64,000 nt of DNA from a virus: IMG/VR virus record IMGVR_UViG_3300020165_003419, positions 34,300 to 98,299 of that record; one strand, given 5' to 3'. Within the stretch, counting starts at the first letter, position 1; each line of letters starts with the position of its first letter. Made by a program: the position numbers and the translations under genes. Below are positions 14,245-42,372 of this stretch, piece after piece. A model generated the notes under the pieces. The model saw only the letters and a program-made list of their open reading frames with translations. It was not told where the DNA came from and searched no databases.

Positions 14245-14465
14245 TCAACCATGTTTAGCAAATCTTCTTTTGTGATCTCACTTTCGCTAGAAACACGTAC
14301 AGTAGGGGGGTTTGTAACAGTGAGTCCTTCTTCGGTGGCCACTAATTCAAATCCTTTTAGGATTGGAACAATGTCGATTTGATTTAACAAAGATTCTTGT
14401 AACGCCATCATTACGGCGCCGAGAGCCTGATTTGATAGTTTATAAGTTTCAGTATTATTATCCAT
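14241..14465 (-). CDS. Small conserved-looking protein, function unknown
   Basis: 74 residues from the ATG at 14465, chosen because AAAGGA lies seven bases upstream; an earlier in-frame start at 14501 lacks a comparable site. The protein begins MDNNTETYKLSNQALGAVM and ends ITKEDLLNMVE, and looks like a small alpha/beta protein. Its start overlaps the end of the UDP-sugar dehydrogenase gene by 8 bases. No family recognised. Confidence 0.55.
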   Translation of the reverse strand: MDNNTETYKLSNQALGAVMMALQESLLNQIDIVPILKGFELVATEEGLTVTNPPTVRVSSESEITKEDLLNMVE

Positions 14466-15321: not shown

Positions 15322-15323
15322 GT

Positions 15324-19161: not shown

Positions 19162-19170
19162 GTTCCTGCT

Positions 19171-20508
19171 TTATTTTTTAACGTTATTTATATTTGTGCC
19201 AATTGGCGTTGATGTTGATTGGGCTTCTAATTCTCTCATATCCCCAAATCCACCAAATTGCGATGAATCTTCTTGTCTTTCGCATAACAACAAATCATAC
19301 TTAGTCTTAAAATATGCTTGCTGGGCTTTTAATTCGATGTTCGTAAAATGTTCTGTGGACCAGAAATCATTTGAATATTCATCTGCTGTTTCCCAGTTTA
19401 CGTTCTCGTGCAACTTTGGATCGTATAATTGTGTTCCGGGATACGGGCATAAAATTGTAAACCCAACCACATCTGGTCTAATCTCATCAATTAATTTTTC
19501 AGTGAGCAGTAGGTCTTCTCTTGTTTCATTAGGCATACCAAACAAGAAGAAGCCGCGTCTTTCTACTCCATATTTCTTAGCCCAAGCAAATACATTCTTG
19601 ATTGTTTTAACCTGTAGACCCTTGCCAACGTCGCGGAGGATTCTATCACTACCGCTTTCACATCCAATATTTACTTGGTGACACTGGGATTCTTTAAGCC
19701 ATTTAAACATCTCTTCGCTTGCAAAGCTAGCATGAATAAGGCACTCCCATTCTGTGGTGATTCCTCTCTTGATTTTTTCTTTGCAAAACTCAATAACAAA
19801 AGCAGCTGAGATATCAAAGGTTGCATCTACAAACTTAAAGTAAGTCAAGTCAAGTTCTTCGATTACTGATTCTATTTCATCACAAAGCTCGCTAACATCT
19901 CTGCTTCTGATCGGATTGTTGCGGCGGTGAAACCTGCCCGACACAATTCGTTCTGCACAAAAAGCGCAGTTAACAGGACATACCCTGTTACATTGAAAGG
20001 ATGCTGTGCGCTTACCATTCATGGACTCGCACAAATCAACGGTTCTGTAATTTTTGATTATACTACGGTCTGGCCATGGCAATTCTTGCATTGGCGGCTT
20101 GGTTCCTTGTATAACAGGGTCTGTTCGACCATTTACAATTTCTAAGAACACCTCTTCACCTTCGCCAATAACAACTTGATCAACATAAGGATGTGCAGCG
20201 CACTCTTGTGGGAGTGCTGATGGATGGAAGCCACCAAATACTGTTCGTATTTCAGGATTTCTTTTCTTCATTGCCTCTGCTAATCTTAGGGCATGCGGCC
20301 ATGCAGGAGAGGTGCAAGAAAACCCTACAACATCTGCGTCAATTGAGCCTTCAATAATCACTTCATCTGTATCAAAGTTTCCCTGGTAGCATTCTACCTC
20401 AAGATCTCCAACAAAATGTTTCTTCAAATACCCCGCAATGAAGCCTAAACCAATTGGTTCCCAGATATTTTCATAATATGGTTGTACTAATACTACTTTT
20501 GTTGTCAT
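19171..20508 (-). CDS. B12-binding-domain radical SAM protein
   Basis: 445 residues. The N-terminal third looks like a cobalamin-binding Rossmann domain (PIGLGFIAGYL, VVFGGFHPSALP-like stretch GGFHPSALPQE, VIGEGE). The radical SAM domain follows with the 4Fe-4S ligands in C-P-V-N-C-A-F-C (CxxxCxxC, about residue 175) and later GCESGSDRIL and FGMPNETREDL. This architecture is typical of class B methylases and of uncharacterised enzymes in polysaccharide loci. Substrate unknown. The phage also carries IscU and a ferredoxin, which might serve such a cluster enzyme. Confidence 0.8.
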   Translation of the reverse strand: MTTKVVLVQPYYENIWEPIGLGFIAGYLKKHFVGDLEVECYQGNFDTDEVIIEGSIDADVVGFSCTSPAWPHALRLAEAMKKRNPEIRTVFGGFHPSALPQECAAHPYVDQVVIGEGEEVFLEIVNGRTDPVIQGTKPPMQELPWPDRSIIKNYRTVDLCESMNGKRTASFQCNRVCPVNCAFCAERIVSGRFHRRNNPIRSRDVSELCDEIESVIEELDLTYFKFVDATFDISAAFVIEFCKEKIKRGITTEWECLIHASFASEEMFKWLKESQCHQVNIGCESGSDRILRDVGKGLQVKTIKNVFAWAKKYGVERRGFFLFGMPNETREDLLLTEKLIDEIRPDVVGFTILCPYPGTQLYDPKLHENVNWETADEYSNDFWSTEHFTNIELKAQQAYFKTKYDLLLCERQEDSSQFGGFGDMRELEAQSTSTPIGTNINNVKK

Positions 20509-21138
20509 TTATCGACCCTCCTTATATACATCATATATAGATAAGTCTTGGTATTCTCGCTCTAAATCATCGTTGTGATCTGCAATGCCGAGCATTAAAA
20601 CAAGACCTTTTGCAGCAATCTCCGGTAACATGTAATAATTCCAACCTAACATATCAAAGTGATCTACCATGTGATCTACCGGATTTCTACCAAAATAGCG
20701 AGCCCTCTTAAGCCACTCATACGCTTCTTTATCATCGGTTAGAATCATACCGCCCTTACCAAGCTTCAAGAACTTGTGGGGTCCACTAAACGAAATACAT
20801 TGCATTTGTCCCGGTCGGTACATATCCTTAGTAAATCTTAAGGCACTGTCCCAAACTGGCAATGGAGAAAGTTGGTATTCTCCTTTTAATTTATTTCCGG
20901 CGAGAGCTGGGTGTTCTTTATCAAACTTTACGTGATTACCAGACTGTATGATAGCGCAGGGTACCGACATAAAGGTTCTTGCAGGAATAGTTAATTCTTG
21001 TCCTTGGGTTTTCAGATACTTAAGACACAAGAACATACCATTAGTTGCGTTGTCCACTGCGACGGCATATTTGGCGCCGGTGTACTCGGCTACTGTTTCT
21101 TCAAACATGTGCGTAACTTCGTATGGGTTGTGTTTCAT
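20509..21138 (-). CDS. Short DegT/DnrJ/EryC1-family aminotransferase-like protein
   Basis: 209 residues, about half the usual 370. The family pattern is still visible: FEETVAEYTGAKYAVAVDNAT, then IPARTFMSVPCAI, VWDSALRF in place of the usual E-D-xA-H region, and the putative PLP-lysine motif SFSGPHKFLKLGKGGMI. The C-terminal small domain is lacking. It may be a compact enzyme, act as a heteromer with the full-length copy at 26 kb, or be a decayed form; the frame is intact. It overlaps the CMP-sugar synthetase gene by 4 bases. Confidence 0.6.
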   Translation of the reverse strand: MKHNPYEVTHMFEETVAEYTGAKYAVAVDNATNGMFLCLKYLKTQGQELTIPARTFMSVPCAIIQSGNHVKFDKEHPALAGNKLKGEYQLSPLPVWDSALRFTKDMYRPGQMQCISFSGPHKFLKLGKGGMILTDDKEAYEWLKRARYFGRNPVDHMVDHFDMLGWNYYMLPEIAAKGLVLMLGIADHNDDLEREYQDLSIYDVYKEGR

Positions 21139-21797
21139 TTGATACCTCGTAACTTCTTGTATATCATTTCAGCAACCATAAAATCAAATTCTGTATCAAT
21201 ATCAATTGATTCAATTTCATCTAACACTTTAAAAGTGGGGTTATCTGTCACTACGTTTCTATATTTTATCATATCTTTTTTAGAGATTATGCAGATTCCA
21301 TAAGTTACTGCGTTAATATCTGGTAAATCTTGGCTGTTGGGCGACTCTGCAATGTCGTAGTTTAATGGTTTACCATCTAACCACATGTGATGTTTAATTT
21401 GAGACACTGTTACAAGATTTTCTAACTCATCATCTTGTTTAAATTTCTGAATACAGTCATGATATGTCTCTAACGATATCATTGGACACGTAACCGGGCT
21501 GTACATAAGATACTCTGCATCCATGCAGTGAGCTAGATTTTCAAAAAATTCAGAATTAGAAGCTTCGGAACTAGCGTGATACTGGTCACGAGTGTGAGTT
21601 TTTACTCCATGTTCTCTGGCAATAGAAAGCATTTTTTCACAATCGGAACTTACCACGATATCGTCTACAAGTTTGACTTGCTTAAGTTGATTAATTTTTA
21701 ATTCTAATAAGTTCGTATCTGCAAATGGCTTAAGGTTTTTGTTTTTAACTCTTACTGAGCCTTTACGCACTGGGATTACTGCTGTTATTTTTCTCAC
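21135..21797 (-). CDS. Acylneuraminate cytidylyltransferase-like (CMP-sugar synthetase)
   Basis: 220 residues. The N-terminus AVIPVRKGSVRVKNKNLKPF is the nucleotide-binding signature of the NeuA/PseF/KdsB group (A-x-I-P-A-R-x-G-S). VVSSDCEKML and YLMYSPVTCPM fit the same fold. The enzyme should activate a nonulosonic or ulosonic acid with CTP for transfer to a surface glycan. Which acid cannot be told. Overlaps both neighbours by 4 bases, inside the cassette. Confidence 0.75.
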   Translation of the reverse strand: MRKITAVIPVRKGSVRVKNKNLKPFADTNLLELKINQLKQVKLVDDIVVSSDCEKMLSIAREHGVKTHTRDQYHASSEASNSEFFENLAHCMDAEYLMYSPVTCPMISLETYHDCIQKFKQDDELENLVTVSQIKHHMWLDGKPLNYDIAESPNSQDLPDINAVTYGICIISKKDMIKYRNVVTDNPTFKVLDEIESIDIDTEFDFMVAEMIYKKLRGIK

Positions 21798-22774
21798 TTA
21801 AGCCTCTCAAGGATCTCGCTCCAGTTGTTGGTGAATTCGATTGCTTTATCATCAATATAAAATTTTGCTCTTGGCTTCTCATGTGTGATTTCAGACACGT
21901 AATCGCGTACACCATGAAATTCCAGCCACTCATCAACCAGTTCATAGCCTGTTTTGCCGTTTACAAACGGTCTGTCCGGGCGTACCTTGGCGGAAAAAAT
22001 AATAATGTTCCAGTCATCCGCCAGAGATTTTATTGCTTCCAGGGCGCCTTCTATGGGCGCCCCATAACACGTGCCATCGTGCCAGCCTTTATCAAATGTA
22101 TGCACGACACCGTCAAAGTCAATAGCTAAGTTTGCCAATTGACTCTCTAGTCCGGGCGGAACCTCTTGATTGTGGGTCTCAACCTCTGACTCGATGCCAA
22201 GTTTTTCAAATCTTCTTTCTTGGGCCTTCTTAGAAATAGTAGGACACATAAACCCTGCATCATGGATTAACTGGTATGTCATCGTTAGCGACAAAATCTC
22301 TGAGGTATGATAATATTTGGCGTGCTGAATAACTTGGATGACCTTGGGGTTTATTCCCTTCTCTTTTGGCTGTGCTGCCCAAAGTGCGCTTGGGATTCCT
22401 TGGTCTGCTGCCCAATTCAGTGCGGTTGCAAGACAATCAGATGATGCTCCATTAGTTGAGCAGGATAACCCAATAGCCAAGCATTCACTTTTGTCGAGGT
22501 TTCTTGTTCTGATCTCCAACCAATTTTGAATCCAATCATTGAAGCTTGTATCTCCCTGAATCGAAGTAACAACTACTCCGCCGCCGGGAGCATATACGTT
22601 CTTATCTGTTAGTCGCGATGCATCAACTGCAGCGTGCTCAGCAATACTCATATTACCGCCGTGACCAAAAAAGAAAACGTGCTTGGCGTCATTGTAAAGT
22701 TCTTGTAGCTGTTGAAATTCATCTGTAGCTACAATCGCTCTGAATTTATTTTCCATTGATTCAATGTCTAACAT
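21794..22774 (-). CDS. SIS-domain (GmhA-like) / HAD-like hydrolase fusion
   Basis: 326 residues in two parts. Residues about 25-170 form a SIS sugar-phosphate isomerase domain with FFFGHGGNMSIAEHAA, close to the G-N-G-G-S loop of GmhA, and LSCSTNGAS as the second phosphate-binding loop. Residues about 213-326 look like a HAD hydrolase: LAIDFDGVVHTFD supplies the D-x-D-G nucleophile motif, and KPRAKFYIDDKAI the late acidic motif. The pair could make and dephosphorylate a heptose phosphate, the first and third steps of ADP-heptose synthesis, for which later enzymes are encoded at 31-33 kb. That assignment is inferred. Confidence 0.7.
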   Translation of the reverse strand: MLDIESMENKFRAIVATDEFQQLQELYNDAKHVFFFGHGGNMSIAEHAAVDASRLTDKNVYAPGGGVVVTSIQGDTSFNDWIQNWLEIRTRNLDKSECLAIGLSCSTNGASSDCLATALNWAADQGIPSALWAAQPKEKGINPKVIQVIQHAKYYHTSEILSLTMTYQLIHDAGFMCPTISKKAQERRFEKLGIESEVETHNQEVPPGLESQLANLAIDFDGVVHTFDKGWHDGTCYGAPIEGALEAIKSLADDWNIIIFSAKVRPDRPFVNGKTGYELVDEWLEFHGVRDYVSEITHEKPRAKFYIDDKAIEFTNNWSEILERLK

Positions 22775-22782
22775 TTTTTAAT

Positions 22783-23502
22783 TTATCCTATATTATTTTG
22801 ATCTGCTGTCGGGAAGATATCTAATGACACTGGGTTTATTGAGTATATTTCAACGTCTGGGTAATTCTCTTCTATCCACCCTTTTACAATTCCCCAGTAT
22901 CTAGCTATCCAATAACCGGCTCCTTGATCTTTACCGATCATTATTTTTGCAAATGTGCCGTTATCATAATTACAATCATGCCCAACAAGGTATATTTTTT
23001 TTACACCGCAATATAGCATGAACTGTAGCACCTCAAAAGATATAGAAGCGACTGCCATAAGTGGTCCGATTGTTATATCTTTTTTAAACATACAGGTGTC
23101 AGGATTTCCATCGCTATCACATTCATAATATTTTGCATTTTTAATTCTACCGGGCATTTGACCAGATCGAGGTACAACTCCAATCTCTGGGATCTCTATA
23201 ACTCTGTTGTCTTCCCAAATTGGATGTCTAATAAATTTTTGTATATTCGGTTTATACTCGTTGTATTCTGCATATCTATAATAAAACTTTGCTGGAACCT
23301 GTGGCATTGCATCTCCCATAAACCAATAATCTAAATTTAAATCTAGAAATATTTGATCGTTTACACCATATCTTAACACGTCCGGGGGCAGCTGTCCACT
23401 ATTAAATTCAAGAATTGTTGGTCCTGAACCGAATAATACAGCGCTGGCGCCCTCGTGTTTATTGTGGTACTCGGCAAATGCGTTCCAGTTAAGCACACTC
23501 AT
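22783..23502 (-). CDS. DUF115/sialyltransferase-like Rossmann protein
   Basis: 239 residues. The N-terminus SAVLFGSGPTILEF then YGVND and DLDYWFMGD resembles the fold shared by DUF115 proteins and GT42 sialyltransferases (G-x-G-P-S near the start). VKKIYLVGHDCNYDNGTF near residue 180 resembles the second conserved motif of these proteins. The adjacent CMP-sugar synthetase would supply a donor if it is a GT42 enzyme, but no catalytic His can be placed with confidence. Confidence 0.5.
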   Translation of the reverse strand: MSVLNWNAFAEYHNKHEGASAVLFGSGPTILEFNSGQLPPDVLRYGVNDQIFLDLNLDYWFMGDAMPQVPAKFYYRYAEYNEYKPNIQKFIRHPIWEDNRVIEIPEIGVVPRSGQMPGRIKNAKYYECDSDGNPDTCMFKKDITIGPLMAVASISFEVLQFMLYCGVKKIYLVGHDCNYDNGTFAKIMIGKDQGAGYWIARYWGIVKGWIEENYPDVEIYSINPVSLDIFPTADQNNIG

Positions 23503-24095
23503 TTTAATTTTCCAATATAAACAGGAATATTTCTTTTGTCTCCACCAAGTAATTTATTATTTGTAAGCCTCTGCCTGTTTTCAAATGTTTTATCAAACCA
23601 GTTTTCAAGTGTGGGCTGAAACGCCGGATCTTCGACTTCGTTGCCATAATCTATAACAAAACAATTTTTTACTCTCAAGTTTTCAAAAATGTCTGTATAA
23701 TAATTTTGTGGAGTTTCTGATAGGCAGTGTGTTTCGATTATCATATCCCATTCTTCGTCAAAAACTTTTTTATATTCGCTAGATTTAAAAAATCTAACAT
23801 TATCGCCAACATTTTGTTTGATGAGATCGAAATGTGCCTCAAGATCTAATATTGCGTAATCCACATTTTTATTTAATTGTAAAATATTTTTTGCCAAAAA
23901 TCCATTACCGGCGCCAATTTCTAATATTTTACCACTAAAATCAGAATAATGTTCTGACCACAGGTTAACATATTCTTGGTCACCGGTGGAAGATATTTTT
24001 CCTACTGGTGAGCTTGAGTTAAACCATGTTGGTTTTACGTTGTTTTCTTTGCTATCATTTGGAACCATTCCAGGTGCTAATTTCCATTTTGACAT
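23499..24095 (-). CDS. SAM-dependent methyltransferase (sugar O-methyltransferase-like)
   Basis: 198 residues from the ATG at 24095, chosen because it falls four bases after the upstream stop and follows AGAGGATTGGGAT; a longer frame from 24152 would overlap the epimerase gene by 53 bases. Motif I is KILEIGAGNGFLAKNI (about residue 55) and the acidic motif II is AILDLEAH. The C-terminus resembles sugar O-methyltransferases of capsule loci. Overlaps the next gene by 4 bases. Confidence 0.65.
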   Translation of the reverse strand: MSKWKLAPGMVPNDSKENNVKPTWFNSSSPVGKISSTGDQEYVNLWSEHYSDFSGKILEIGAGNGFLAKNILQLNKNVDYAILDLEAHFDLIKQNVGDNVRFFKSSEYKKVFDEEWDMIIETHCLSETPQNYYTDIFENLRVKNCFVIDYGNEVEDPAFQPTLENWFDKTFENRQRLTNNKLLGGDKRNIPVYIGKLK

Positions 24096-24099
24096 ACTC

Positions 24100-25050
24100 C
24101 TATCCCAATCCTCTTTTAATGTTGACGTATGGATTGACGAAATCGGCAACATTTAGTGCCTTGATTATCTCATCAATTCCCTCTTCAATCGTAACCTCTG
24201 TTTTAAAGCCAAGAGCTTTTATCTTATCATAACTTACGATGTAATTTCTCTTATCTGCGTCTTCACCAATTTCTTCGAAGTGAATGAATCCATTAGTTTT
24301 ATCGGCTACCATGCGGCAGACATCTTCTTTACTGTAGTTCATTGAGTCATCACCAATATTATATACATTGTTGACCATCTTATCAACGTTGTTGACCGCT
24401 AGCATAAAAGCGTTGGCCATGTCTGAAACATGGATAAACGTTCTCATAAAGTGTTTCTCGTAAACAACCAAATACCCATCACGCAAACACTTGTTGGTGA
24501 AGTCATTAATGAGCAAGTCAAGTCGAAGACGAGGAGAAACACCGAATGCGGTAGCAAATCGATACGCGATAACATTACCGCGCGCCATTAGCATGTGCTC
24601 TGCTTCTGTTTTTGTTTCTCCATATAGGCTCAACGGATTAAGAGGCGATTCTTCCGTACAAATATCCGTTACCTTGCCATAGTTGCTTCCAGTCGAACCA
24701 TATAAGATTATCTGTTCTGGGCTGGTAGCGTCAATTATATTCTGGGTTCCGCCGACGTTAACGTTAGTTGCTAACTCAGGGTTGTTTTTACAGGCAGGGA
24801 ACCCAACAATTGCCGCTAAATGAATAATGATATCCTTATCTTTTACTGCAGCTTCTACGTCCTTCTTGATTGTAACATCTCCGTTAATGAAATGAAAATT
24901 CTTATTCCTGAAAAACGAGAGAAGTTGATTACCTCCTTGCATCAGATTATCAAACACTGTCACCTCATGCCCAGCTTCGATAAGCTTGGGTAACAGTGCG
25001 GTACCTACATACCCGGCGCCCCCGGTGACTAAAATTCTTTTCTTTACCAT
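24100..25050 (-). CDS. NAD-dependent epimerase/dehydratase (extended SDR)
   Basis: 316 residues. Motifs: VTGGAGYVGTALL (NAD binding), HLAAIVGFPAC, YGSTGSNYGKV (active-site Ser/Thr) and YGETKTEAE with the catalytic Tyr and Lys, then RTFIHVSDMANAF. This is a classic NDP-sugar epimerase or dehydratase layout. The exact product cannot be told. It overlaps the DUF962 gene by 7 bases. Confidence 0.8.
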   Translation of the reverse strand: MVKKRILVTGGAGYVGTALLPKLIEAGHEVTVFDNLMQGGNQLLSFFRNKNFHFINGDVTIKKDVEAAVKDKDIIIHLAAIVGFPACKNNPELATNVNVGGTQNIIDATSPEQIILYGSTGSNYGKVTDICTEESPLNPLSLYGETKTEAEHMLMARGNVIAYRFATAFGVSPRLRLDLLINDFTNKCLRDGYLVVYEKHFMRTFIHVSDMANAFMLAVNNVDKMVNNVYNIGDDSMNYSKEDVCRMVADKTNGFIHFEEIGEDADKRNYIVSYDKIKALGFKTEVTIEEGIDEIIKALNVADFVNPYVNIKRGLG

Positions 25051-25331
25051 ATTGATAACCTTCCTAATAAAATATCTTTAAACATAATCCAATCAGCTAT
25101 TTTTGCTTTTACTGGATCATTGAATGCTGCTGGTTTGTTTTTTTCGAAAACATAATGTCCTGTCCAAGCAAATGGATATACGACGAATGGCGCGAACAGC
25201 AAACCGAACCATGCGTTATTAACTATTATAACACCTACATACAAAATTGTAAGCCATAAACCAATAAAATGCAATAATCTGCATTTTGGGTGGGTGTGTA
25301 ATTTTAAATAATTTTGATAATACTCATGCAT
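25044..25331 (-). CDS. DUF962/Mpo1-like membrane protein
   Basis: 95 residues. The pattern YYQNYLKLHTHPKCRLLHFIG at the N-terminus, two or more transmembrane stretches (about 26-60), and W-T-G-H-Y-V-F-E-K-N-K-P-A-A-F near residue 57-72 are the hallmarks of DUF962. Yeast Mpo1 of this family is an Fe(II) 2-hydroxy fatty acid dioxygenase, with the conserved His residues binding iron. A fatty-acid-modifying role, perhaps in lipid A or membrane remodelling, is an inference. It overlaps its neighbours by 7-8 bases inside the sugar cassette. Confidence 0.7.
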   Translation of the reverse strand: MHEYYQNYLKLHTHPKCRLLHFIGLWLTILYVGVIIVNNAWFGLLFAPFVVYPFAWTGHYVFEKNKPAAFNDPVKAKIADWIMFKDILLGRLSIW

Positions 25332-26043
25332 TTTCTTTTATAAACCTCTGGAATCTTTCTATTATCTCATCTTTGCTATACAGATAGGGACCTGTTCTTC
25401 CCCAATGAATCGAATGAGCAGTTAACATATTCTCATGTACAACTTTTTCGGGGTCTGTGCATAAATAGTCTGACTTGAATAACTTAAGTATATCATGAAA
25501 AAGTATCGGCTCTGTAGCTATGTTTAACGTTTTAAGTTTCGCGTTTTGCATTATTATTATGTCTTGCCACAGTAAGTCTAAGCAGTAATATTGAAAAGTT
25601 GAATCTTGGTGTGGTAAATAACTCTCTTCTTTGTTTAACAGATCGTAGATTGCATTCTTTCTCAATCCATCTCCAAACAAAGACGGCAACCGCACAACAG
25701 AGACATCATCAAAATGATTTTTTAAATATGTCTCCAGATAAAGACGATTTTGACCATATGCGTTATCAGCAGGGTTATCGTAAACAGCGATTGTAGAGAT
25801 AAGAATTAATTTTTTAAATTTTGTTTTTTCTAAATTTTTAATCAATCTTTGAATTTGTGCAAAGTCTTCTTTTGGCTGCTTATTCGCTTTCCATTTTACG
25901 CTACTTACGCCAGCACACACTATCAACTCAAATTGTTGACCAGAAATCTCTTCAATGTTTTTAGAATTATAGTATCTGTCAAATTGCGTTTGTTCTGATA
26001 AATTTGAACCAACAAACCCAGTGTGCCCGATAAGTGCTTTCAT
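25324..26043 (-). CDS. NAD(P)-binding SDR protein, short form
   Basis: 239 residues. The N-terminus MKALIGHTGFVGSNL is the dinucleotide-binding loop of extended SDRs, though written G-x-x-G-F-V-G. LILISTIAVYD and AYGQNRLYLE give a plausible Ser and Tyr region, but the usual Y-x-x-x-K appears as Y-G-Q-N-R, lacking the Lys. The protein may therefore be a reductase with altered chemistry or a non-catalytic relative. Overlaps neighbours by 4 and 8 bases. Confidence 0.6.
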   Translation of the reverse strand: MKALIGHTGFVGSNLSEQTQFDRYYNSKNIEEISGQQFELIVCAGVSSVKWKANKQPKEDFAQIQRLIKNLEKTKFKKLILISTIAVYDNPADNAYGQNRLYLETYLKNHFDDVSVVRLPSLFGDGLRKNAIYDLLNKEESYLPHQDSTFQYYCLDLLWQDIIIMQNAKLKTLNIATEPILFHDILKLFKSDYLCTDPEKVVHENMLTAHSIHWGRTGPYLYSKDEIIERFQRFIKENA

Positions 26044-27179
26044 TGATTGTCGTATTCTTTAATGTTTGTAATAATTCTGGTGACGTCGTCTTCAGTCAGA
26101 TCTGAATGTAAAGGGATGAGGATGACATCTTCGTCGGCTCGCTTAAGGTTTGGCAAGTCACAAAGCCCGCCGAACATCTCATATATATCATTTCTTCGAT
26201 TATTAACGTTAACTTGAATATTCCTATCCCACATGTAGTGAGCGAACTCTTCGCGGTCTTCGACATGGATAGGAAAAATCTGATAGTTGGGTGTCCAGTG
26301 ATCTTGGTAGTTTAAAAGCGTAACCTTTGTTAAACCTTGCAGCTCTCTTCGGTATCTTTCTCCAATCTGCTTACGATGTTCCAAGACTCTGTCTAAATGA
26401 TCCATTGCTACACTGGCGAGTGTTGCAGTGATGTCATTCATGTTTGATTTAAATCCAAGCCCATCGGGTGGGACAGGGAGAGGATCCAAAATGCTGGTCT
26501 TCTTGACCTCTCGATCAATCCCATACCAAGACTGCTTGCGAATCTTCTTATATAAAGCTTCATCAGTGGTGGTTATGACTCCGCCATCTCCACAGGTTAC
26601 AATCTTAACGCACTGGAACGAGAATGTTGCCACATCTCCGAAAGATCCAATAGGTTGTCCCTTGTATTCGCATGCCATTGCGTGCGCGCTATCTTCGATA
26701 ATTGGAAGACCATGACGGTCTGCTACTTCACGTAGCTCGTCCATATCAACAGGATTGCCCGCATAGTGAACGCACATGATCGCTTTTGTTTTATTTGTAA
26801 TCTTCTCTTCGACGCTCTTTGGATCAATATTGAGTGTATCATATTGAATATCCGCGAACACGGGTGTGGCGCCAATCTCAAGAATTGAAGTATTAGTCGC
26901 AATAAAGGTGAATGGTGTACTGACTACTTCGTCGCCGGGGCCGACATCAAGAGCTTTGAGCGCAATTTTAAGAGCGGCGGTTCCGCTCATGCAAGCTGCA
27001 GCATATGGAGCTTTAAACCTTGCTCGAACTTTTGCTCTAAATTCTGCTTCTTTCTTACCGGTATTAAGCCACTTTGACTTAAGTGTCTTAGCTACTTCTT
27101 CACCAGCTTCGTCTGGAACGTACACACTCCAGCACCTGATGATGGACTCTTCCATTTTAAAATCATTGTCAGTTGTCAT
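26040..27179 (-). CDS. DegT/DnrJ/EryC1/StrS-family aminotransferase
   Basis: 379 residues, full family length. Visible motifs: AAACMSGTAALKIALKAL, PFTFIATNTSILEIGATPVF, IEDSAHAM (substrate and PLP region) and FSFQCVKIVTCGDGG with the presumed PLP-binding Lys. These PLP enzymes transfer an amino group to keto-sugars; the dTDP-4-keto-6-deoxyglucose made by RmlB is a plausible substrate. Overlaps the downstream SDR and upstream methyltransferase genes by 4 bases each. Confidence 0.85.
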   Translation of the reverse strand: MTTDNDFKMEESIIRCWSVYVPDEAGEEVAKTLKSKWLNTGKKEAEFRAKVRARFKAPYAAACMSGTAALKIALKALDVGPGDEVVSTPFTFIATNTSILEIGATPVFADIQYDTLNIDPKSVEEKITNKTKAIMCVHYAGNPVDMDELREVADRHGLPIIEDSAHAMACEYKGQPIGSFGDVATFSFQCVKIVTCGDGGVITTTDEALYKKIRKQSWYGIDREVKKTSILDPLPVPPDGLGFKSNMNDITATLASVAMDHLDRVLEHRKQIGERYRRELQGLTKVTLLNYQDHWTPNYQIFPIHVEDREEFAHYMWDRNIQVNVNNRRNDIYEMFGGLCDLPNLKRADEDVILIPLHSDLTEDDVTRIITNIKEYDNQ

Positions 27180-30467: not shown

Positions 30468-30833
30468 TTAATCTCCCTTTTGTATTCTATGTGAATCTGA
30501 ATCAAAATGCTGTGTCGAAAATTCAAACAACTCAGTATCCTCCAAAGCAATCATCTGATGTCTTAGACCGGTCCAAACATGAAAGTTGTCGCCGGGACCA
30601 AGTATGACTTCATTAGCTTCAGAAATATCATCTCCAGGAGAATATTTTACCAATATTTTGCCGGATTGTATATAAAAAACCTCATCTTTTAGTTCATGGT
30701 AATGCCAAGAGCAGCGTTTTCCTTTAACAAAATAAAGAAGTTTGCCGCAATATTGCTCACAGTTTACAATCCATTTTTCAAAACCCCAACCTTTGGGGAC
30801 AAATTTAATCTCTTGTGTTGAAGAAGTCTTCAT
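30468..30833 (-). CDS. Cupin-domain protein (phosphomannose isomerase-like)
   Basis: 121 residues from ATG 30833, with AAGGA seven bases before it. A single cupin barrel: WHYHELKDEVFYIQSGKI gives cupin motif 1 with two His and a Glu, and PGDNFHVWTGLRHQMIA gives motif 2. The closest type is the C-terminal domain of mannose-6-phosphate isomerase/GDP-mannose pyrophosphorylase, or a sugar isomerase. Metal ligands look complete. Overlaps the HAD gene by 29 bases. Confidence 0.7.
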   Translation of the reverse strand: MKTSSTQEIKFVPKGWGFEKWIVNCEQYCGKLLYFVKGKRCSWHYHELKDEVFYIQSGKILVKYSPGDDISEANEVILGPGDNFHVWTGLRHQMIALEDTELFEFSTQHFDSDSHRIQKGD

Positions 30834-31131
30834 CTTTAATTCCTTTATCATCAATGTAAAAATCACCAGCTGGTTTTCCTAAAAATAGAGAGTGAAACTG
30901 AACACCCCAATCAAGTAACTGCTGTCTTGTTAAATCATAAAATGCACGATTTGCATATCCGATATTGTTATCGCTTCTGCCCATTCCTCTTGCTGTTTGA
31001 AAAACAATCTCATGTCCTTCTTTATACAGTTGGTTTACTTTGTCAATGCGCTCTTGTATAGGGAACGCCTCTGAATAGTCTCCCTCGGTCTTGGTGCATA
31101 TCGTTCCGTCAATATCAAAAACGTAAGTCAT
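30805..31131 (-). CDS. Small HAD-superfamily phosphatase
   Basis: 108 residues from ATG 31131 (AAGGAAC upstream). YVFDIDGTICTKTEGDY is HAD motif I with D-x-D-G-T, IVFQTARGMGRS gives motif II (T), and GDFYIDDKGI the final acidic motif. This minimal HAD type is common in capsule and LPS loci as a sugar-phosphate phosphatase. Because the next three genes upstream make ADP-heptose, it could be the heptose-bisphosphate phosphatase (GmhB step), in competition with the HAD part of the SIS fusion. Confidence 0.75.
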   Translation of the reverse strand: MTYVFDIDGTICTKTEGDYSEAFPIQERIDKVNQLYKEGHEIVFQTARGMGRSDNNIGYANRAFYDLTRQQLLDWGVQFHSLFLGKPAGDFYIDDKGIKDEDFFNTRD

Positions 31132-31927
31132 AAGTTCCTTTAAGCATTTCATCTACATCATCTTTTGTAATAACATAAGTTCCCATATGAGAAACTGATA
31201 TGCTAGCCAATTTATTAGCGCACCTAATGGCCGATGGAATACTTTTATCTCTTAGATAGGTGTATGCTAATGTCGATAAGAATACATCGCCGGCGCCGCA
31301 AACATCAAACACCTCAACAACGTTAGTTGGGAAAACCACATCTTTGTATCGTGTTCCTTTTTCTCCCAAAGTAACAATAAACTGACTGTTCTCTGGGAAT
31401 ACTTCAATTGATTCATATTCTTTTTCATTTATTTTGATGAATACTCCCTCAAAGCAAGATAAATCGACTTTCTTTGTATCAACAAAAATCGGAATATTTA
31501 CATCTAATTCTTTATAGTATCGGATTATTTCTTTACATGCTTCCGGCGGCAAAAAACCTTTATTGTAATCACTAATAACTACAACGTCTGGTACAGTGGT
31601 TGTGTGTATTATGTTTGTATTTATAGGTTGGATGCTGTGGTGTTCACCTTCATCCCATCTTAGCAAATGTTGGTTATATTTGCTATCGATAAACCTATGT
31701 TTGTTTATTTTTTCTGTATTGGTATAGTGCAAAACGAATCCGCCAAGAGATTCCATGTTAAGGCGAACGTTCCAAGACATTCCAGGCAAAACTACACGCT
31801 TGGTTTCTTTTAATACTGGTACTGGTGCTTCAGGACTGAGTCTTTCACATTTGCCATAATGATAAATATCACTACAGCAATCACCTATCAGAACTACGTT
31901 GTATCGTTTTTGTTGTTGAATATCCAT
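31115..31927 (-). CDS. Heptose-7-phosphate kinase-like PfkB protein (HldE domain I)
   Basis: 270 residues from ATG 31927 (the longer frame begins with TTG at 31939). A PfkB/ribokinase fold: VVLIGDCCSDIYHYG, RLSPEAPVPVLKE (the R-x-S-P-E-A-P-V-P-V motif found in RfaE/HldE), VISDYNKGFLP, and the catalytic VCGAGDVFLST with the GAGD anion hole and Asp base. In E. coli this domain is fused to a nucleotidyltransferase; here it is a separate gene that overlaps its nucleotidyltransferase partner by 47 bases. It phosphorylates heptose-7-phosphate at C1. Confidence 0.85.
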   Translation of the reverse strand: MDIQQQKRYNVVLIGDCCSDIYHYGKCERLSPEAPVPVLKETKRVVLPGMSWNVRLNMESLGGFVLHYTNTEKINKHRFIDSKYNQHLLRWDEGEHHSIQPINTNIIHTTTVPDVVVISDYNKGFLPPEACKEIIRYYKELDVNIPIFVDTKKVDLSCFEGVFIKINEKEYESIEVFPENSQFIVTLGEKGTRYKDVVFPTNVVEVFDVCGAGDVFLSTLAYTYLRDKSIPSAIRCANKLASISVSHMGTYVITKDDVDEMLKGTYDLRF

Positions 31928-32303
31928 CAATTTTCTCAAAAAATTCTATTTTTTTAGCATGCTTGCCGCCTACCACATGTTTATTCTTGTAGTCGGAGCC
32001 TATCACCATAATATCTGGGGACACCATTTTTACTAAAATTTCTAATTCTTTTGCTGAGTCAAAAATCACAACTTCATCAACAAAAGAAAGACTTTCTAAC
32101 ATTAGTTTTCTGTCTTGTTCGCTGTTGATTGGTCGAGTTGGACCTTTAAGCTCTTTTACTCTTTTATCAGAGTCAATTCCTATTATAACCTTATCTGACT
32201 TATTTTTTAAATATTCAAACAATTTTATGTGCCCGACATGTAGAATATCAAAACAGCCGTTTGTAAATCCAACTATTTTATGCTTTTTTCCAAAATTGAA
32301 CAT
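31881..32303 (-). CDS. ADP-heptose synthase-like nucleotidyltransferase (HldE domain II / HldC-like)
   Basis: 140 residues from ATG 32303; an in-frame upstream extension to 32354 would sit inside the HldD gene. GFTNGCFDILHVGHIKLFE is the cytidylyltransferase-type H-x-G-H signature of HldE domain II, and VIGSDYKNKHVVGG and YSTTKTI the late motif. The enzyme would make ADP-heptose from heptose-1-phosphate and ATP. The ATG lies within the last 26 bases of hldD, so the two are translationally coupled. Confidence 0.8.
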   Translation of the reverse strand: MFNFGKKHKIVGFTNGCFDILHVGHIKLFEYLKNKSDKVIIGIDSDKRVKELKGPTRPINSEQDRKLMLESLSFVDEVVIFDSAKELEILVKMVSPDIMVIGSDYKNKHVVGGKHAKKIEFFEKIDGYSTTKTIQRSSDR

Positions 32304-33186
32304 ATTTGTCAATCCCACCGTGAAGAGACGAAAACGGTCTATCGTATTTGCCAATCATATAAAGTTTATCTGTATCAGCCCGAGTAAATTTCTGATACTT
32401 GTCTACCAGATATCCAGGCATTTCTATTTCTTTTGTGTCAAAAGAATAATATTCGGACATTATTTCAGGTATTGCTGAAAATGATTCTGCTATACCAGTG
32501 CCGCAATTAAAGATTCCACTAATTTTTTTATTCTCAATGAAATGTTTATTAATAGAAACGATATCATCAATATAAATAAAGTCTCTTAAAAAGCCATGGC
32601 TTCCTTCAAAAATTCTAATCTCACCAGTCGTATCAATTTGCTTTTTAAATTGGTGTACAACCGAAGCCATGCCTCCCTTTCGGTGTTCCATTGGTCCATA
32701 CACATTAAAATATCTCAATCCCACAATTTGTGGGTACCCTTCGCAACTTATAAAAGATTCAGCGTAATTATCGAATACTCTTTTTGAGTTTGCATAAACG
32801 TTTTTTGGATTCAAATAAGCTTCTTCATGAAAAGGTCCATCTCCGTAAACAGAGGCAGAGGAAGCATATATTAAACGTATATCATGTTTTAAACATGTCT
32901 GTAGTAGACTCAAGCTATAATCAAAATTATGCTTCATCATAAACTTAGGTGCATAAATTGTTGTGTCGGAGCATGCACCCTGGTGTATAATAATTTCGAT
33001 TTGTTTTGCATATGAATCATTTTTTAATTTTTCTAAGAATGTAAATGGATCCATAACCGGATGTTTTGGCGAAAACTCATTTGCAAACCCATCGATGAAA
33101 TCAACAAGTACTATATCTCTAACGTGCTTAAGATTTTGATATATATTCCAACCAATAAATCCGGCGGCGCCTGTTATTACTATCAT
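32278..33186 (-). CDS. hldD: ADP-L-glycero-D-manno-heptose 6-epimerase (HldD)
   Basis: 302 residues, family length. HldD-specific signatures: VITGAAGFIGWN, IIHQGACSDTT, YASSASVYGDG, VYANSKRVFD, YFNVYGPMEHRKGGMASVV and FLRDFIYIDD. The catalytic Tyr/Lys and the H-Q-G-A-C-S-D-T loop are intact. The enzyme inverts C6 of ADP-D-glycero-D-manno-heptose, the last step before transfer to LPS core. It directly precedes the nucleotidyltransferase and kinase genes, making a phage-borne ADP-heptose operon. Confidence 0.9.
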   Translation of the reverse strand: MIVITGAAGFIGWNIYQNLKHVRDIVLVDFIDGFANEFSPKHPVMDPFTFLEKLKNDSYAKQIEIIIHQGACSDTTIYAPKFMMKHNFDYSLSLLQTCLKHDIRLIYASSASVYGDGPFHEEAYLNPKNVYANSKRVFDNYAESFISCEGYPQIVGLRYFNVYGPMEHRKGGMASVVHQFKKQIDTTGEIRIFEGSHGFLRDFIYIDDIVSINKHFIENKKISGIFNCGTGIAESFSAIPEIMSEYYSFDTKEIEMPGYLVDKYQKFTRADTDKLYMIGKYDRPFSSLHGGIDKYVQFWKKA

Positions 33187-34025
33187 TCGAACATTACCTC
33201 TTTGAATCTTAATAATGCGGCATCAATATTTTCAGATATTTTGTCGTTTAATTCATCACCGGAGAGGTGGCTATAATCTTCGCTGAAGAACCCAACAAGC
33301 TTAGGCGTAGTTAACACCTTGCAGTTTAACATTTTGGCTTCAGCGCAGACGCGCGAAAACGTTTCCAGCACTTGAGGAAAAAATATAAACTTTTCACATA
33401 AAGATAATCGTGTAATAAATTCTACATAATCCGGGGAGCTTACCATTGTGGGCACAATATCGTTATTCTTACAAAACTCCATAGCTTTCAAAGTACCCTT
33501 TACTTGGTTGCCGCTATCTAAAATTCCATACTCGTTTGACTTTCCAGAAGTATGACTAATCTGCTTAATTAATTCTAAATGTTCTTTAGACCACAAGCTG
33601 CAGCCTATACTATGAACATTGTTAATTTGCAAATTATTTTCTATAACTTCTTTACAAACTTTGCTTAATACAAAAACTTTTTTTGCTTGGTCATAAAAAT
33701 CCCTATTGATAATCATGTTTCTTGGAGCAATAAAATTCTTGAAAGCTCCAGGATTTCGATTAGCAACATATTTGTGGTCATGCTCATAAATAATGTAATT
33801 CTTTTTATTCATCAGGTACTGTTTAGCTGTATCTGGTAGTCTTATAAAGTTGCTTACTACAAAGAAATCATAATCATCAAGCACACTCTCAACATTGTAA
33901 GTGTGCACCCCTGATGCTTTTACTTTTTTTTGTGACGATAAATAATTTAGGAGCACTGAATCATTTTTTTCAGCACCCCCAATTATCTCATTTTCAAAAA
34001 AGTCTTGTAGTAGAGCTACTTTCAT
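33183..34025 (-). CDS. Glycosyltransferase, group 1 (GT4)-like
   Basis: 280 residues. The C-terminal half has a GT-B appearance: YGILDSGNQVKGTLKAMEF (strand plus K-G loop), FFPQVLETFSRVCAEAKML (the E-x7-E-like helix of GT4 enzymes) and KVLTTPKLVGF. The N-terminus MKVALLQDFFENEIIGGAEK holds a GGAE motif typical of GT4 acceptor domains. Shorter than usual (about 370), so the N-terminal domain is compact. Overlaps both neighbours by 4 bases. Confidence 0.65.
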   Translation of the reverse strand: MKVALLQDFFENEIIGGAEKNDSVLLNYLSSQKKVKASGVHTYNVESVLDDYDFFVVSNFIRLPDTAKQYLMNKKNYIIYEHDHKYVANRNPGAFKNFIAPRNMIINRDFYDQAKKVFVLSKVCKEVIENNLQINNVHSIGCSLWSKEHLELIKQISHTSGKSNEYGILDSGNQVKGTLKAMEFCKNNDIVPTMVSSPDYVEFITRLSLCEKFIFFPQVLETFSRVCAEAKMLNCKVLTTPKLVGFFSEDYSHLSGDELNDKISENIDAALLRFKEVMFE

Positions 34026-35269
34026 AAAATTTCAATCTGTGACAAATTACTAGCCCACTCTGTGTCTATCTCTAATCCGAGAGCCGACACAAATTTATCA
34101 TACATTTTTGATTGTTCGAATCTTTCATGAATCTCAGTTGCATACGTCTCTGCGGCTGCGACATGTCCAGCATTGTTTTGAATATCTTCATAACATTGTC
34201 TCATATTTTCTTTATAAGACTGTTCTCTTGCATTTGCCCAGCCTGACTCTTCTATTAGAACAGTTGGCCACACAACTTCTTTTGGAACTTTAGCTATGTC
34301 AAAGGCAACATTATAAAAATTCTCTCTACCGTTCTCATTGCACAAAAAGTCTAATTGTCCGGACCAACCAACACTTACGACTGGAAGTCCACTGTATGCT
34401 GCTTCAAAAATTGGCAACCCAAAACCCTCTCCATGAGGAATGGCGACAAAAGCGGACACTTTTTCGTGACTGTACAAGGAGTGCATCTCGGCATCTGACA
34501 TGTCTCCATGTAGTAAATAAATTTTACACTTCCGATCTTTAGGTAGATCTGCGAGTAGACCCTTTAATTGTCCTTCGCATCCTTCTCTGTCCATTAAGCA
34601 ATTTTTTGATAGATTGGTCTTCAATACCAAACCAACTTCGTCGTTGTGAAACTCGTCGACGAACCATCGAACCATGTTCTCAATATTTTTTCTTGGAGAC
34701 CATTGGGCTACTGCCAAGAAATTGGTATCGTATTCAAGCTCTAAATCAATTTCTGGTAACGACTCATAAACTTTAGCAGGATAATTGACTACTTCGATGT
34801 CAGTCTCAGTTTTAAGCCATCCCTCGGGGACCGTGTGATCGCCACCCTGTTGTACGTATTTTGTAAATTCCATCACATTCTTAGAATGGTTTGAGATTAC
34901 TATCACTTTATTCATTGCATTAATTGCGGCAATCCACTCACCAGAAATTAGAGTAGTCTCCATTCCAGCTGTATATCCAATATTAATGGGTGCGTAGCTT
35001 TTCCATTCATTTGGGATGGTGATTTGAAGAGATGCGTCATATGTACCGTTCTGTTGGCTGTGTGCAATCGTTTTTTCGATTAGGTGATCAATCCACATCT
35101 TTTCTTCATCGTACTCAGGTACCCATCCAGTTTGTCCCCATTTTAAGGGTTGTACATAGATGTCGAATGCGTCTTCTTGGCTGCGTAGGGCTCGGAGCGC
35201 ATATCTTGATTGTTCTCCGTAACCAGAGCGGGTTAAAATAGGTCCTACGACCAGTAATTTGGTTTTCAT
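34022..35269 (-). CDS. Glycosyltransferase family 4 protein
   Basis: 415 residues. N-terminus LLVVGPILTRSGYGEQSRY with the G-Y-G loop of GT4 acceptor domains; C-terminal donor domain with AQWSPRKNIENMVRWF, FVAIPHGEGFGLPIFEAAYS and LPVVSVGWSGQLDFL. The E-G-F-G-L-P-x-x-E-A motif is the GT4 donor-phosphate signature (E-x7-E). It is paired with a second GT4 gene two bases upstream. Donor sugar unknown. Confidence 0.85.
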   Translation of the reverse strand: MKTKLLVVGPILTRSGYGEQSRYALRALRSQEDAFDIYVQPLKWGQTGWVPEYDEEKMWIDHLIEKTIAHSQQNGTYDASLQITIPNEWKSYAPINIGYTAGMETTLISGEWIAAINAMNKVIVISNHSKNVMEFTKYVQQGGDHTVPEGWLKTETDIEVVNYPAKVYESLPEIDLELEYDTNFLAVAQWSPRKNIENMVRWFVDEFHNDEVGLVLKTNLSKNCLMDREGCEGQLKGLLADLPKDRKCKIYLLHGDMSDAEMHSLYSHEKVSAFVAIPHGEGFGLPIFEAAYSGLPVVSVGWSGQLDFLCNENGRENFYNVAFDIAKVPKEVVWPTVLIEESGWANAREQSYKENMRQCYEDIQNNAGHVAAAETYATEIHERFEQSKMYDKFVSALGLEIDTEWASNLSQIEIL

Positions 35270-35270
35270 T

Positions 35271-36551
35271 TTATGCCACCTCTACTAAGTGGTATCTTTG
35301 ATAACCTTTCCGGGTTTCCCAAGAGCCGTGCTTTTCCATAAACTCGTCCATTAAATTCACCCATCCTTTTTCATAATTTTCAAAGCTATAATTTTCTTTG
35401 ACATGCTTCATTCCAGCTTCAGACATAGCTTTGTATTTTGCCTTTGGAAGCTTTATCGCCTTTGTTAAAGATTTTTCGAAATCTGCTTGTGAAACTCGGT
35501 CTTCATAGATATAAGGCACCGCAAGCGAGCCAATAATAGATTTACTAGCCGGCTGAAGTCCCCATCCAAACCAATCCTTACCATCGGTCACTTGTTCCTG
35601 AAGACCACCAGTCATACTAACGATAATTGGAGAACCACAAGAAAGTGACTCCAATGTACCTAACCCGAACCCTTCAGCATCTGCTATATTGATCGTAAAG
35701 TCGGCCGCATTATAAAAGGCTCCAAGTTCTGCAGAAGATACTTTGTTAGTTGAAAGCATTACCTGTCCTCGGTGTAGTCCAAGGTATTCGATAAGGTGAG
35801 GTAGTGGCTGTCCGTGAGGATCTTCTGCATCTGTATGCATCAACAGACAAGCTTTATCGTGACCGACCTTATCAAGCCATTCCTTGAACCACCAAACTAA
35901 AGTTCCGGGCTGCTTCCTTCTCGCATTTCTGTTGTTCCAGAAAAATATCTTTTTATTTGCACTGCGGAGTTCATCTTCTCCATGAGAAAAAATCTGTTCT
36001 CTCAGCTTTTTAGTCCTTTCATCACTGGGTTTAAATTTATAAAAGTCTGAGGTGTTCACGGCGTGAGGAAGATAATGCGAGGAAACATTTGGTGCAACCT
36101 CTTGTAGAATTTTATGAGTAACCTTTGAAATACAAACTACCTCGTCAGTAGAGCGATAGAATCTACGATTGAATTGCGGCGCTGGAAAGTTATCCCACAC
36201 ATGGTAATAAATCATTGGGCAGCATGCTCGGATTTCATTTTCAATTTCCCAAAGCCAGCCGTAGAACCTCGGGTCAGTCATAAACCAAACCGCATCAGGA
36301 CGCTCTTTTTGTAGAATTGAGCGTATTAGTTCATGTGTACCATACCCATCAATAGGAAAAACTCTAAACTCTTGTCCCCAAGGGTCAACAGTCTGTGGAG
36401 TATAGTCTGCATGCTTTATAGCCCCGCCTAGGCAGATGAACTCATACCGTCCAGTCTTCAACAAAGCCTCAATCATGTATTTAGTTTGTGTTCCAACGCC
36501 AGATGGGGACATCGGGTGGTCAGAAATGACCAAAATCTTCTTTTTATTCAT
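35271..36551 (-). CDS. Glycosyltransferase family 4 protein
   Basis: 426 residues. N-terminal ISDHPMSPSGVGTQTKYMI, then a donor domain with FFWNNRNARRKQPGTLVWWF, INIADAEGFGLGTLESLSCG and SPIIVSMTGGLQEQV. The E-G-F-G-L-x-x-L-E-S motif is the GT4 signature. Related in layout to the neighbouring GT4 gene, though the two are not close copies. First gene of the sugar cassette in the direction of transcription, just downstream of a consensus sigma70 promoter and one intervening gene. Confidence 0.85.
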   Translation of the reverse strand: MNKKKILVISDHPMSPSGVGTQTKYMIEALLKTGRYEFICLGGAIKHADYTPQTVDPWGQEFRVFPIDGYGTHELIRSILQKERPDAVWFMTDPRFYGWLWEIENEIRACCPMIYYHVWDNFPAPQFNRRFYRSTDEVVCISKVTHKILQEVAPNVSSHYLPHAVNTSDFYKFKPSDERTKKLREQIFSHGEDELRSANKKIFFWNNRNARRKQPGTLVWWFKEWLDKVGHDKACLLMHTDAEDPHGQPLPHLIEYLGLHRGQVMLSTNKVSSAELGAFYNAADFTINIADAEGFGLGTLESLSCGSPIIVSMTGGLQEQVTDGKDWFGWGLQPASKSIIGSLAVPYIYEDRVSQADFEKSLTKAIKLPKAKYKAMSEAGMKHVKENYSFENYEKGWVNLMDEFMEKHGSWETRKGYQRYHLVEVA

Positions 36552-40302: not shown

Positions 40303-40378
40303 TGGAGCCGAGAACAGGATTCGAACCTGCGACCATCTGATTACAAATCAGAAGCTCTACCAACTGAGCTATCTCGGC
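40303..40378 (-). tRNA. tRNA-Thr (anticodon TGT)
   Basis: A 76-base cloverleaf on the minus strand: acceptor GCCGAGA/TCTCGGC, D-arm GCTC AGTTGGTA GAGC, anticodon arm TCTGA TTTGTAA TCAGA, T-arm GCAGG TTCGAAT CCTGT, and an encoded 3' CCA. The anticodon TGT reads ACA/threonine. All stems are well paired. It sits between the thymidine kinase gene and the second tRNA. Confidence 0.95.
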
Positions 40379-40533
40379 GGTTCTTCTAAAGTATACTCTA
40401 AATTAGAGATTTTGTTAAGATCTATCATATTCATTCCAGCTGGCATAATACAAGAGCTTAAAAACCATAAATATACTAAAGCGCTACACAAAATCCATAG
40501 CAGTAAGTGTAACGCTATTTCACCTATGTCCAT
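40369..40533 (-). CDS. Possible small membrane peptide between the tRNAs
   Basis: A 54-residue frame from ATG 40533 to the stop at 40369, beginning MDIGEIALHLLLWIL and with one strong hydrophobic stretch followed by a polar tail. Its end overlaps the tRNA-Thr acceptor by 10 bases and there is no convincing ribosome-binding site, so it may be spurious. It is listed because it fills the 168-base gap between two tRNAs. Confidence 0.3.
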   Translation of the reverse strand: MDIGEIALHLLLWILCSALVYLWFLSSCIMPAGMNMIDLNKISNLEYTLEEPPR

Positions 40534-40545
40534 ATAATAGATAGG

Positions 40546-40638
40546 CTGGAGGGGGAGGATTCGAACCTCCAAGGTGCACTTTCGTGAATCACCACCCGAG
40601 AAACAGTCGGGCGCGTTTGCCAATTCCGCCACCCCCCA
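40546..40638 (-). tRNA. Atypical tRNA: anticodon GTT with long variable arm
   Basis: A 93-base cloverleaf on the minus strand. Acceptor TGGGGGG/CCCTCCA (one G-T pair), D-arm GCG...CGC, anticodon arm CCCGA CTGTTTC TCGGG, a variable arm of about 24 bases with its own hairpin (GGTG...CACC and inner CAC-GAAA-GTG), T-arm GGAGG TTCGAAT CCTCC, discriminator G. CCA is not encoded (CCT follows). The anticodon is GTT (Asn), and U1-A72 with G73 also match tRNA-Asn, but the long variable arm and D-loop are of the Leu/Ser class. Base 37 is T instead of the usual purine. Confidence 0.75.
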
Positions 40639-41874: not shown

Positions 41875-42372
41875 CTATCTACCAGAACTTTGTGGTGTGT
41901 TGCGGTTCGGCGGGAGTTCAAAGTCTCTGCCTTTTTTAGTTAACTCGGAAGAACTTTGTAGTTTTTCTTCTCCACCAACGCCCCATAATAATTCTACACC
42001 GATTTCTTCGCATACAGCTTGTTCGGGAGTATTGGCTTTTCCTCGATCACCACCATTCGCAAAGAAGGTTGGTTTTAATCTTCGAATAGCTTCACACACG
42101 GTACCATCGGAGTCGTCCACTGAGTCCACTAAGATAACACCTTTAATAGCGTTTAAGATTTCGACGCGGCGCTCCCATTCCATAAAAACAAAACCTTTTT
42201 TACGAAACAACCAATCATCTGAGTTAGCTATTATTATTACATCTCCATATTGTGCGGCATGTCTTATCATTCGAATATGTCCAGCATGCACAGGATCAAA
42301 GCCGCCTGAGACCATTACGGTTGGGTTCGTCCCATCGTTGTTTTTCTTCCACATATCTCTATGTACAGTCAT
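41875..42372 (-). CDS. Cytidylyltransferase-like nucleotidyltransferase
   Basis: 165 residues. VMVSGGFDPVHAGHIRMIRHA near residue 20 has the G-x-F-D-x-x-H-x-G-H signature, and IIIANSDDWLFRKKG and EWERRVEIL follow the cytidylyltransferase pattern of HldE domain II/TagD. It is distinct from the HldC-like gene at 32 kb and not in the sugar cassette. Substrate unknown; possibly a sugar- or alcohol-phosphate, or a nicotinamide nucleotide. The C-terminus is a polar tail (PPNRNTPQSSGR). Confidence 0.65.
   Translation of the reverse strand: MTVHRDMWKKNNDGTNPTVMVSGGFDPVHAGHIRMIRHAAQYGDVIIIANSDDWLFRKKGFVFMEWERRVEILNAIKGVILVDSVDDSDGTVCEAIRRLKPTFFANGGDRGKANTPEQAVCEEIGVELLWGVGGEEKLQSSSELTKKGRDFELPPNRNTPQSSGR

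Follow-up and report, generated by a model that had tools for sequence, protein, structure and literature searches.

A conserved five-gene phage cassette for probable ADP-heptose synthesis, with a cupin as candidate replacement for the isomerase GmhA

ADP-heptose is one of the core building blocks of Gram-negative cell surfaces and also an agonist of innate immunity; GmhA, which catalyzes the first step of its synthesis, serves as the pathway's marker. Bacteria produce ADP-L-glycero-beta-D-manno-heptose by means of GmhA, HldE (or separate HldA and HldC), GmhB, and HldD. We analyzed a 64,000-nucleotide stretch of viral DNA (the window), which comprises bases 34300 to 98299 of the 98,299-base IMG/VR virus record IMGVR_UViG_3300020165_003419, a tailed phage of marine type with matches to baseplate-wedge genes. 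Five minus-strand genes at 30468 to 33186, which overlap successively in the order HldD, HldC, HldA, HAD, and cupin from high to low coordinate, most likely constitute a conserved ADP-heptose module in which the cupin takes the place of the unrelated GmhA (probability about 0.68). The kinase, nucleotidyltransferase, and epimerase of the cassette are homologous to those of the bacterial pathway, and the two phosphatases belong to the same HAD superfamily; the cassette differs in harboring a cupin and no GmhA, a kinase about 30 residues shorter, and a phosphatase of the EcbF/BcbF type rather than GmhB.

Viral enzymes that make ADP-heptose have already been reported and assayed by Tang et al. (2024), whose work on nucleoside diphosphate (NDP)-heptose enzymes across kingdoms is described in a published comment (PMC11461863) as finding the phosphatase to be absent in viruses. 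Relative to the enzymes as summarized there, our cassette adds a candidate HAD phosphatase and has a cupin in the place of the isomerase. Sullivan et al. (2010) noted the co-occurrence of T4-GC 304, 305, 307, and 308 in three cyanophages and, where they discuss cyanophage lipopolysaccharide (LPS) genes, left undecided whether these have a function or are stuffer DNA (PMC3037559). The LPS clusters T4-GC 304 to 308 of P-SSM2, S-SM2, and S-SSM7 contain the same HldC, HldA, HAD, cupin, and HldD genes, though not always in the same order, and the sections of that paper on these clusters give the cupin no pathway role, unlike the reading proposed here. In a search that covered mainly open-access papers, we found no literature that links a cupin to sedoheptulose 7-phosphate or gmhA. 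New here are the five-gene cassette as a whole, the HAD protein as the probable viral phosphatase, the cupin as the probable GmhA replacement, and the support from gene fusions and co-occurrence in archaea and bacteria.

The HldD protein scores above the curated cut-off of its family (TIGR02197, 287.5 bits versus 274.6), is 42% identical to enterobacterial HldD by tblastn, and has E. coli HldD (1eq2, E value of 1e-63) as its closest solved structure. The HldC-like protein falls below its cut-off (TIGR02199, 127.8 bits versus 181.5, E value of 2.8e-37), keeps the catalytic motifs, and has cytidylyltransferase-fold enzymes as solved relatives. The HldA-like kinase, also below its cut-off, matches TIGR02198 in three stretches (145.9 bits versus 345, E value of 1.5e-42) and phrog_8133 with an E value of 1e-82. 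Rather than pointing to an unrelated sugar pathway for this PfkB-family protein, an outcome that the preliminary description of the locus had allowed for, the search of solved structures placed it nearest to Burkholderia HldA (4e84, named D-beta-D-heptose 7-phosphate kinase). The best NCBIfam model for the HAD protein is that of the EcbF/BcbF capsule phosphatases (TIGR01689, 55.5 bits versus a cut-off of 162, E value of 5e-15), while the NCBIfam GmhB models do not match it; its solved relatives are 1xpj and 9iqw, and its DxDxT motif is invariant. The cupin passes the gathering score of PF07883 (Cupin_2; 33.8 bits versus 27.2). These family matches and intact motifs bear out the preliminary description insofar as it had placed HldD, a separate kinase and nucleotidyltransferase, and a HAD protein in one overlapping cluster at 30805 to 33186; it had missed the fifth member, the overlapping cupin at 30468 to 30866.

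The kinase lacks profile positions ~65 to 96 of TIGR02198, and this gap is shared by all 16 aligned phage kinases. The phage proteins are 241 to 276 residues long (trimmed set, with one outlier) versus 304 to 340 for cellular sequences. Despite its compactness, the window kinase keeps the SPEAPVPV-type N-terminal motif as well as K-x-R, R-x-D, SDYxKG, and GAGD; among the 16 phage kinases GAGD is invariant and SPEAPVPV nearly so. In a quick tree one branch separates the phage kinases from seven cellular sequences and two long-branch rows, and the window kinase clusters with two IMG/VR contigs (L095 and L099).

The conversion of fructose 6-phosphate to mannose 6-phosphate is the counterpart, among six-carbon sugars, of the GmhA reaction. 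Of the cassette proteins the cupin is the most strongly conserved, with 58 to 65% identity between the window and most cyanophages versus 34 to 47% for the kinase. Across 66 cupin sequences H57, E62, and H103 never vary and H55 hardly does; together they form the classic three-His/one-Glu cupin metal site. Its AlphaFold2 model has a mean predicted local distance difference test (pLDDT) score of 92, and the top Foldseek match is a D-lyxose isomerase with fructose bound; small archaeal phosphomannose isomerases align over most of their length. The predicted fold is common to the window cupin, cupin D-lyxose isomerases (7nzp and 2y0o), and archaeal cupin phosphomannose isomerases (7zvm and 7zvy), with ~25% identity in the structural alignments. 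The proposed common chemistry is aldose-ketose isomerization toward a manno-type sugar, the substrate of the window cupin being predicted. The three-His/one-Glu site is likewise shared with the D-lyxose isomerase TsLI, an aldose-ketose isomerase in which these residues hold the metal and the Glu has been proposed to act in proton transfer (PMC8378251). The modeled fold therefore allows such an isomerase without proving it. The type II mannose-6-phosphate isomerase of cyanophage S-SCSM1 (PMC9602691) was ruled out as an identity for the cupin, since its motif residues (Ser, Gln, His, and Arg) differ from those of the window cupin, which has SxHYHxxK.

Genes of the cassette were found by tblastn in cyanophages P-SSM2, P-SSM5, S-CAM1, S-CAM3, S-SSM7, S-SM2, P-TIM68, S-T4, and Sf-CH8, and also in single-cell marine viruses. 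Scanning viral contigs with an alignment of the cupin retrieved at least 573 relatives among at least 600 candidate stretches. In the best 80 of these at least 573 viral loci, the genes near the cupin include HldA in 59, HAD in 65, HldC in 59, and HldD in 13. The linked genes occur in at least 10 different orders in dozens of phages, which argues against a chance cluster. Searches of whole cupin- or HldA-bearing phage records matched the compact HldA model in 47 of 50, while GmhA was matched in none of the same 50 at an E value of 0.01. Synteny with the window extends over 18 genes (36559 down to 22783) in one related locus, L039. Megablast of the window DNA against named phages gave no close relative, and HldD or SIS alone as IMG/VR queries returned no relatives, an uninformative absence given the short exact patterns used. 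In eight public cyanophage records the HAD gene is entered as phosphoheptose isomerase and the cupin as cysteine dioxygenase, and phrog_1238 bears the same doubtful annotation. Both names look wrong by sequence; the former is doubtful because HAD motifs are present and a SIS domain is absent. One 101,404-base contig is listed as a virus in IMG/VR and also belongs to a Halobacteriovorax metagenome-assembled genome (MAG), and five further cassette loci from genome contigs (L105 to L107, L110, and L111) likewise resemble viral contigs binned into MAGs.

The same cupin is found in cellular heptose operons. In a Woesearchaeota locus (L124) the cupin is followed by HldD, HldA, and a GmhB::HldC fusion with a true GmhB, an arrangement repeated in L163 and L164. 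An HldA::cupin fusion adjoins an HldC::GmhB fusion and HldD in L166 and L167, and HldA::cupin fusions also occur in L170 and L171. L169 encodes GmhB::cupin::HldC in a single 504-residue frame with HldA alongside, while L162 and L168 possess cupin, HldA, and HldC as separate genes. Altogether, 9 of 13 DPANN cupin loci have heptose genes and none of the 13 matches E. coli GmhA. A Peribacteraceae locus (L127) has the reversed fusion, cupin::HldA, followed by GmhB::HldC; in the genomes of L124 and L127 the GmhA model gave only GlmS-sized matches. As all steps of the route except the isomerase have their own gene in these DPANN and Peribacteraceae operons, the cupin fits the vacant place.

Co-occurrence was examined in the 148 genomes of one bacterial class (that of genome G064), with >150 bits defining a strong cupin and an E value of <1e-20 defining GmhA. 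All 36 genomes with a strong cupin possess HldA/HldE, and 4 of the 36 have GmhA; among the 86 HldA-positive genomes without a strong cupin, 67 have GmhA and 19 have none. The Fisher value for this distribution is not a probability, since the genomes are related and incomplete. GmhA is absent from most of the cupin-bearing genomes tested.

The ADP-heptose route is well supported, because HldD passes its cut-off, the HldA and HldC motifs are kept, and the set occurs together in phages, DPANN, and the candidate phyla radiation (CPR); it is very likely that the cassette encodes an NDP-heptose pathway. In the proposed scheme, the cupin would convert sedoheptulose 7-phosphate to D-glycero-D-manno-heptose 7-phosphate, the compact HldA would add a phosphate at C1, the HAD protein would remove the C7 phosphate, HldC would attach the nucleotide, predicted to be that of ADP-heptose, and HldD would epimerize C6. 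The nearby glycosyltransferases of the phage would probably transfer the heptose either to a virion component or to a glycan of the infected cell, with about even odds for a host-surface glycan as the acceptor. For the cupin itself, the candidate activity of a sedoheptulose-7-phosphate isomerase is likely. We also lean toward a broader proposal: that the cupin stands in for GmhA in phages, DPANN, CPR, and at least one HldE-bearing bacterial clade, and that the phage NDP-heptose route is self-sufficient, including in picocyanobacterial hosts, most of which have no HldA or GmhA match.

Several observations weigh against the cupin as the isomerase. A common fold is no proof of function: in Foldseek, CapF, KdgF, and oxalate decarboxylase rank almost as high as D-lyxose isomerase, VIA-align places several cupins within one Z unit, and the isomerase is a candidate activity only. 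In the bacterial class described above, four genomes hold a strong cupin together with GmhA, 19 HldA-positive genomes have neither, and cupins of ~85 to 115 bits, which may be a different subfamily, accompany GmhA in other genomes. The genome of locus L125 has a cupin operon and a GmhA-like gene. The MAGs are incomplete and inter-related, so that the co-occurrence test is no tally of independent events. In addition, a SIS-like protein is encoded by the window phage, whose own host may supply GmhA.

These points feed the alternative that survives best, itself unlikely, in which ADP-heptose is made but the first step is carried out by a host GmhA or by the SIS-HAD protein of the phage, leaving the cupin a later role, for example, as an NDP-heptose epimerase or isomerase. 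The four genomes with both cupin and GmhA fit it, as does a MAG contig (L115) with a GmhA-like gene close to a cupin cassette. On that contig, a GmhA-like frame followed by a single frame with HAD and HldC-like domains (10174 to 11435) lies downstream of a full cupin cassette, possibly as a second heptose-type module. Hosts could contribute in some cases: of 101 genomes from the picocyanobacterial family to which a Prochlorococcus single-cell genome belongs, 27 have a GmhA-like match and 18 an HldA-like match. Against this alternative, most picocyanobacteria tested have no GmhA match, none of the 50 cassette-bearing phage records tested has GmhA, and the DPANN operons are complete but for GmhA and fuse the cupin to the kinase.

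The SIS-HAD protein, which the preliminary description had taken as a GmhA-like first step at 22 kb, consists of a SIS-like N-terminal domain fused to a HAD domain. Its fold is GmhA-like at best: a low-confidence model (pLDDT of 60; top Foldseek match, 2i2w) is nearest to GmhA, with DiaA and KdsD close behind. The protein matches no NCBIfam GmhA model and no Pfam SIS model at E values up to 10, and PF13580 has no match in the record. In a pairwise alignment that is itself uncertain, E65 and H180 of E. coli GmhA lack an evident equivalent. It lies outside the cassette and occurs in 1 of 123 related loci; in L095 the SIS and HAD halves are two separate overlapping genes. A neighboring CMP-sugar synthetase-like gene (21135 to 21797, PseF E value of 3e-19) suggests that it serves another nucleotide sugar. 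By family tests, rarity, and location we set it aside as the main phage GmhA and keep it within this alternative.

According to a second, improbable alternative, the cassette makes a different activated sugar, its kinase, phosphatase, transferase, and cupin having taken on new roles and HldD being an accessory kept by some phages only. The scarcity of HldD among the best 80 viral loci, the scores of HldA and HldC under their cut-offs, and the lost kinase segment favor this view. It sits poorly with the window HldD, which exceeds its cut-off, with the retained heptose-kinase motifs, and with full-length cellular HldA, GmhB, and HldD relatives in operons with the same cupin; a product made without HldD could still be the D-glycero form. 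That the cassette is unused passenger or stuffer DNA from bacteria, as raised for cyanophage LPS clusters in PMC3037559, is highly improbable given catalytic residues that are invariant across distant phages, a kinase that forms its own compact phage clade, and genes that remain together despite reshuffled order.

Thus, of the complete route to a heptosylated surface sugar put forward in the preliminary description, the ADP-heptose part is well supported, the SIS first step is not supported, and the heptosyltransferase end with its surface sugar has no firm evidence. The presumed GT9-like transferase at 15 kb (15324 to 16139) reaches 15.7 bits versus a cut-off of 22 for Glyco_transf_9 (PF01075, E value of 0.0097), and hence we make no acceptor claim from it. 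The three genes upstream of the cassette, two of them GT4-like (Table 1), keep their order and synteny with it in L039, L030, and L098. The nucleotide-sugar cluster beside the cassette also holds a B12-binding radical SAM protein and a PseF-like cytidylyltransferase, and a run of it is present in L074.

Table 1. Features of the window that belong to or accompany the heptose cassette
Feature	Coordinates	Strand	Support
HldD, ADP-glyceromanno-heptose 6-epimerase	32278-33186	-	TIGR02197, tblastn, solved relative 1eq2
HldC-like heptose-1-phosphate nucleotidyltransferase, separate gene	31881-32354	-	TIGR02199, phrog_7878, NGCFDxxHxGH motif kept
Compact HldA-like heptose-7-phosphate kinase (PfkB family)	31115-31939	-	TIGR02198, phrog_8133, motifs, tree
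Small HAD phosphatase, EcbF/BcbF type, candidate for the GmhB step	30805-31152	-	TIGR01689, 1xpj and 9iqw
Cupin with 3-His/1-Glu metal site, candidate sedoheptulose-7-phosphate isomerase	30468-30866	-	PF07883, model, linkage, fusions
Three upstream genes, two of them GT4-like glycosyltransferases	33183-36551	-	Glycos_transf_1 in 34022-35269 and 35271-36551
SIS-like N-terminal domain fused to HAD domain, outside the cassette	21794-22774	-	
Nucleotide-sugar cluster beside the cassette	14458-27179	-	UDP-glucose-dehydrogenase-like, RmlA/RmlB-like, two DegT aminotransferases

Other minus-strand genes of the window were recorded. A short Mpo1-like protein (25044 to 25331; PF06127, E value of 3e-28) belongs to a 2-hydroxy-fatty-acid dioxygenase family unusual in phages and has relatives in ~10 related loci. 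Adjoining the sugar cluster, the gene at 12974 to 13696 has no Pfam match and recurs in 26 of 123 related loci; on visual inspection its product looks like a small sigma-type protein. Two nucleotidyltransferase-like proteins are encoded at 46771 to 48741 (656 residues, with a weak match to nicotinamide-nucleotide adenylyltransferase) and at 41875 to 42372 (165 residues, with an HxGH-type motif). A one-piece transfer-messenger RNA (tmRNA) gene lies at 45000 to 45336 (RF00023, 126 bits), for which ARAGORN gives the tag ANNNNHFESVRLAA; a permuted-tmRNA model also narrowly passes in a region that overlaps it. At 40303 to 40638 lie two phage tRNA genes, tRNA-Thr(TGT) and tRNA-Asn(GTT). The record outside the window (two stretches) was also scanned for RNA genes and open reading frames.

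The LPS of Synechococcus has been reported to be without heptose, as is most cyanobacterial LPS (PMC4515613). Together with the few GmhA and HldA matches in picocyanobacteria, this suggests that the infected cell often has no such route of its own, at least where cyanophages are concerned. A phage heptose route brought into hosts with heptose-free LPS would yield something new rather than more of the same. If the proposed role of the cupin is correct, heptose makers among phages, archaea, and candidate-phyla bacteria would have been overlooked or judged incomplete, and two annotations that cyanophage genes have long carried, phosphoheptose isomerase and cysteine dioxygenase, would be wrong. 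The question raised in 2010 about the function of cyanophage LPS genes would then become a test-tube assay with four or five enzymes.

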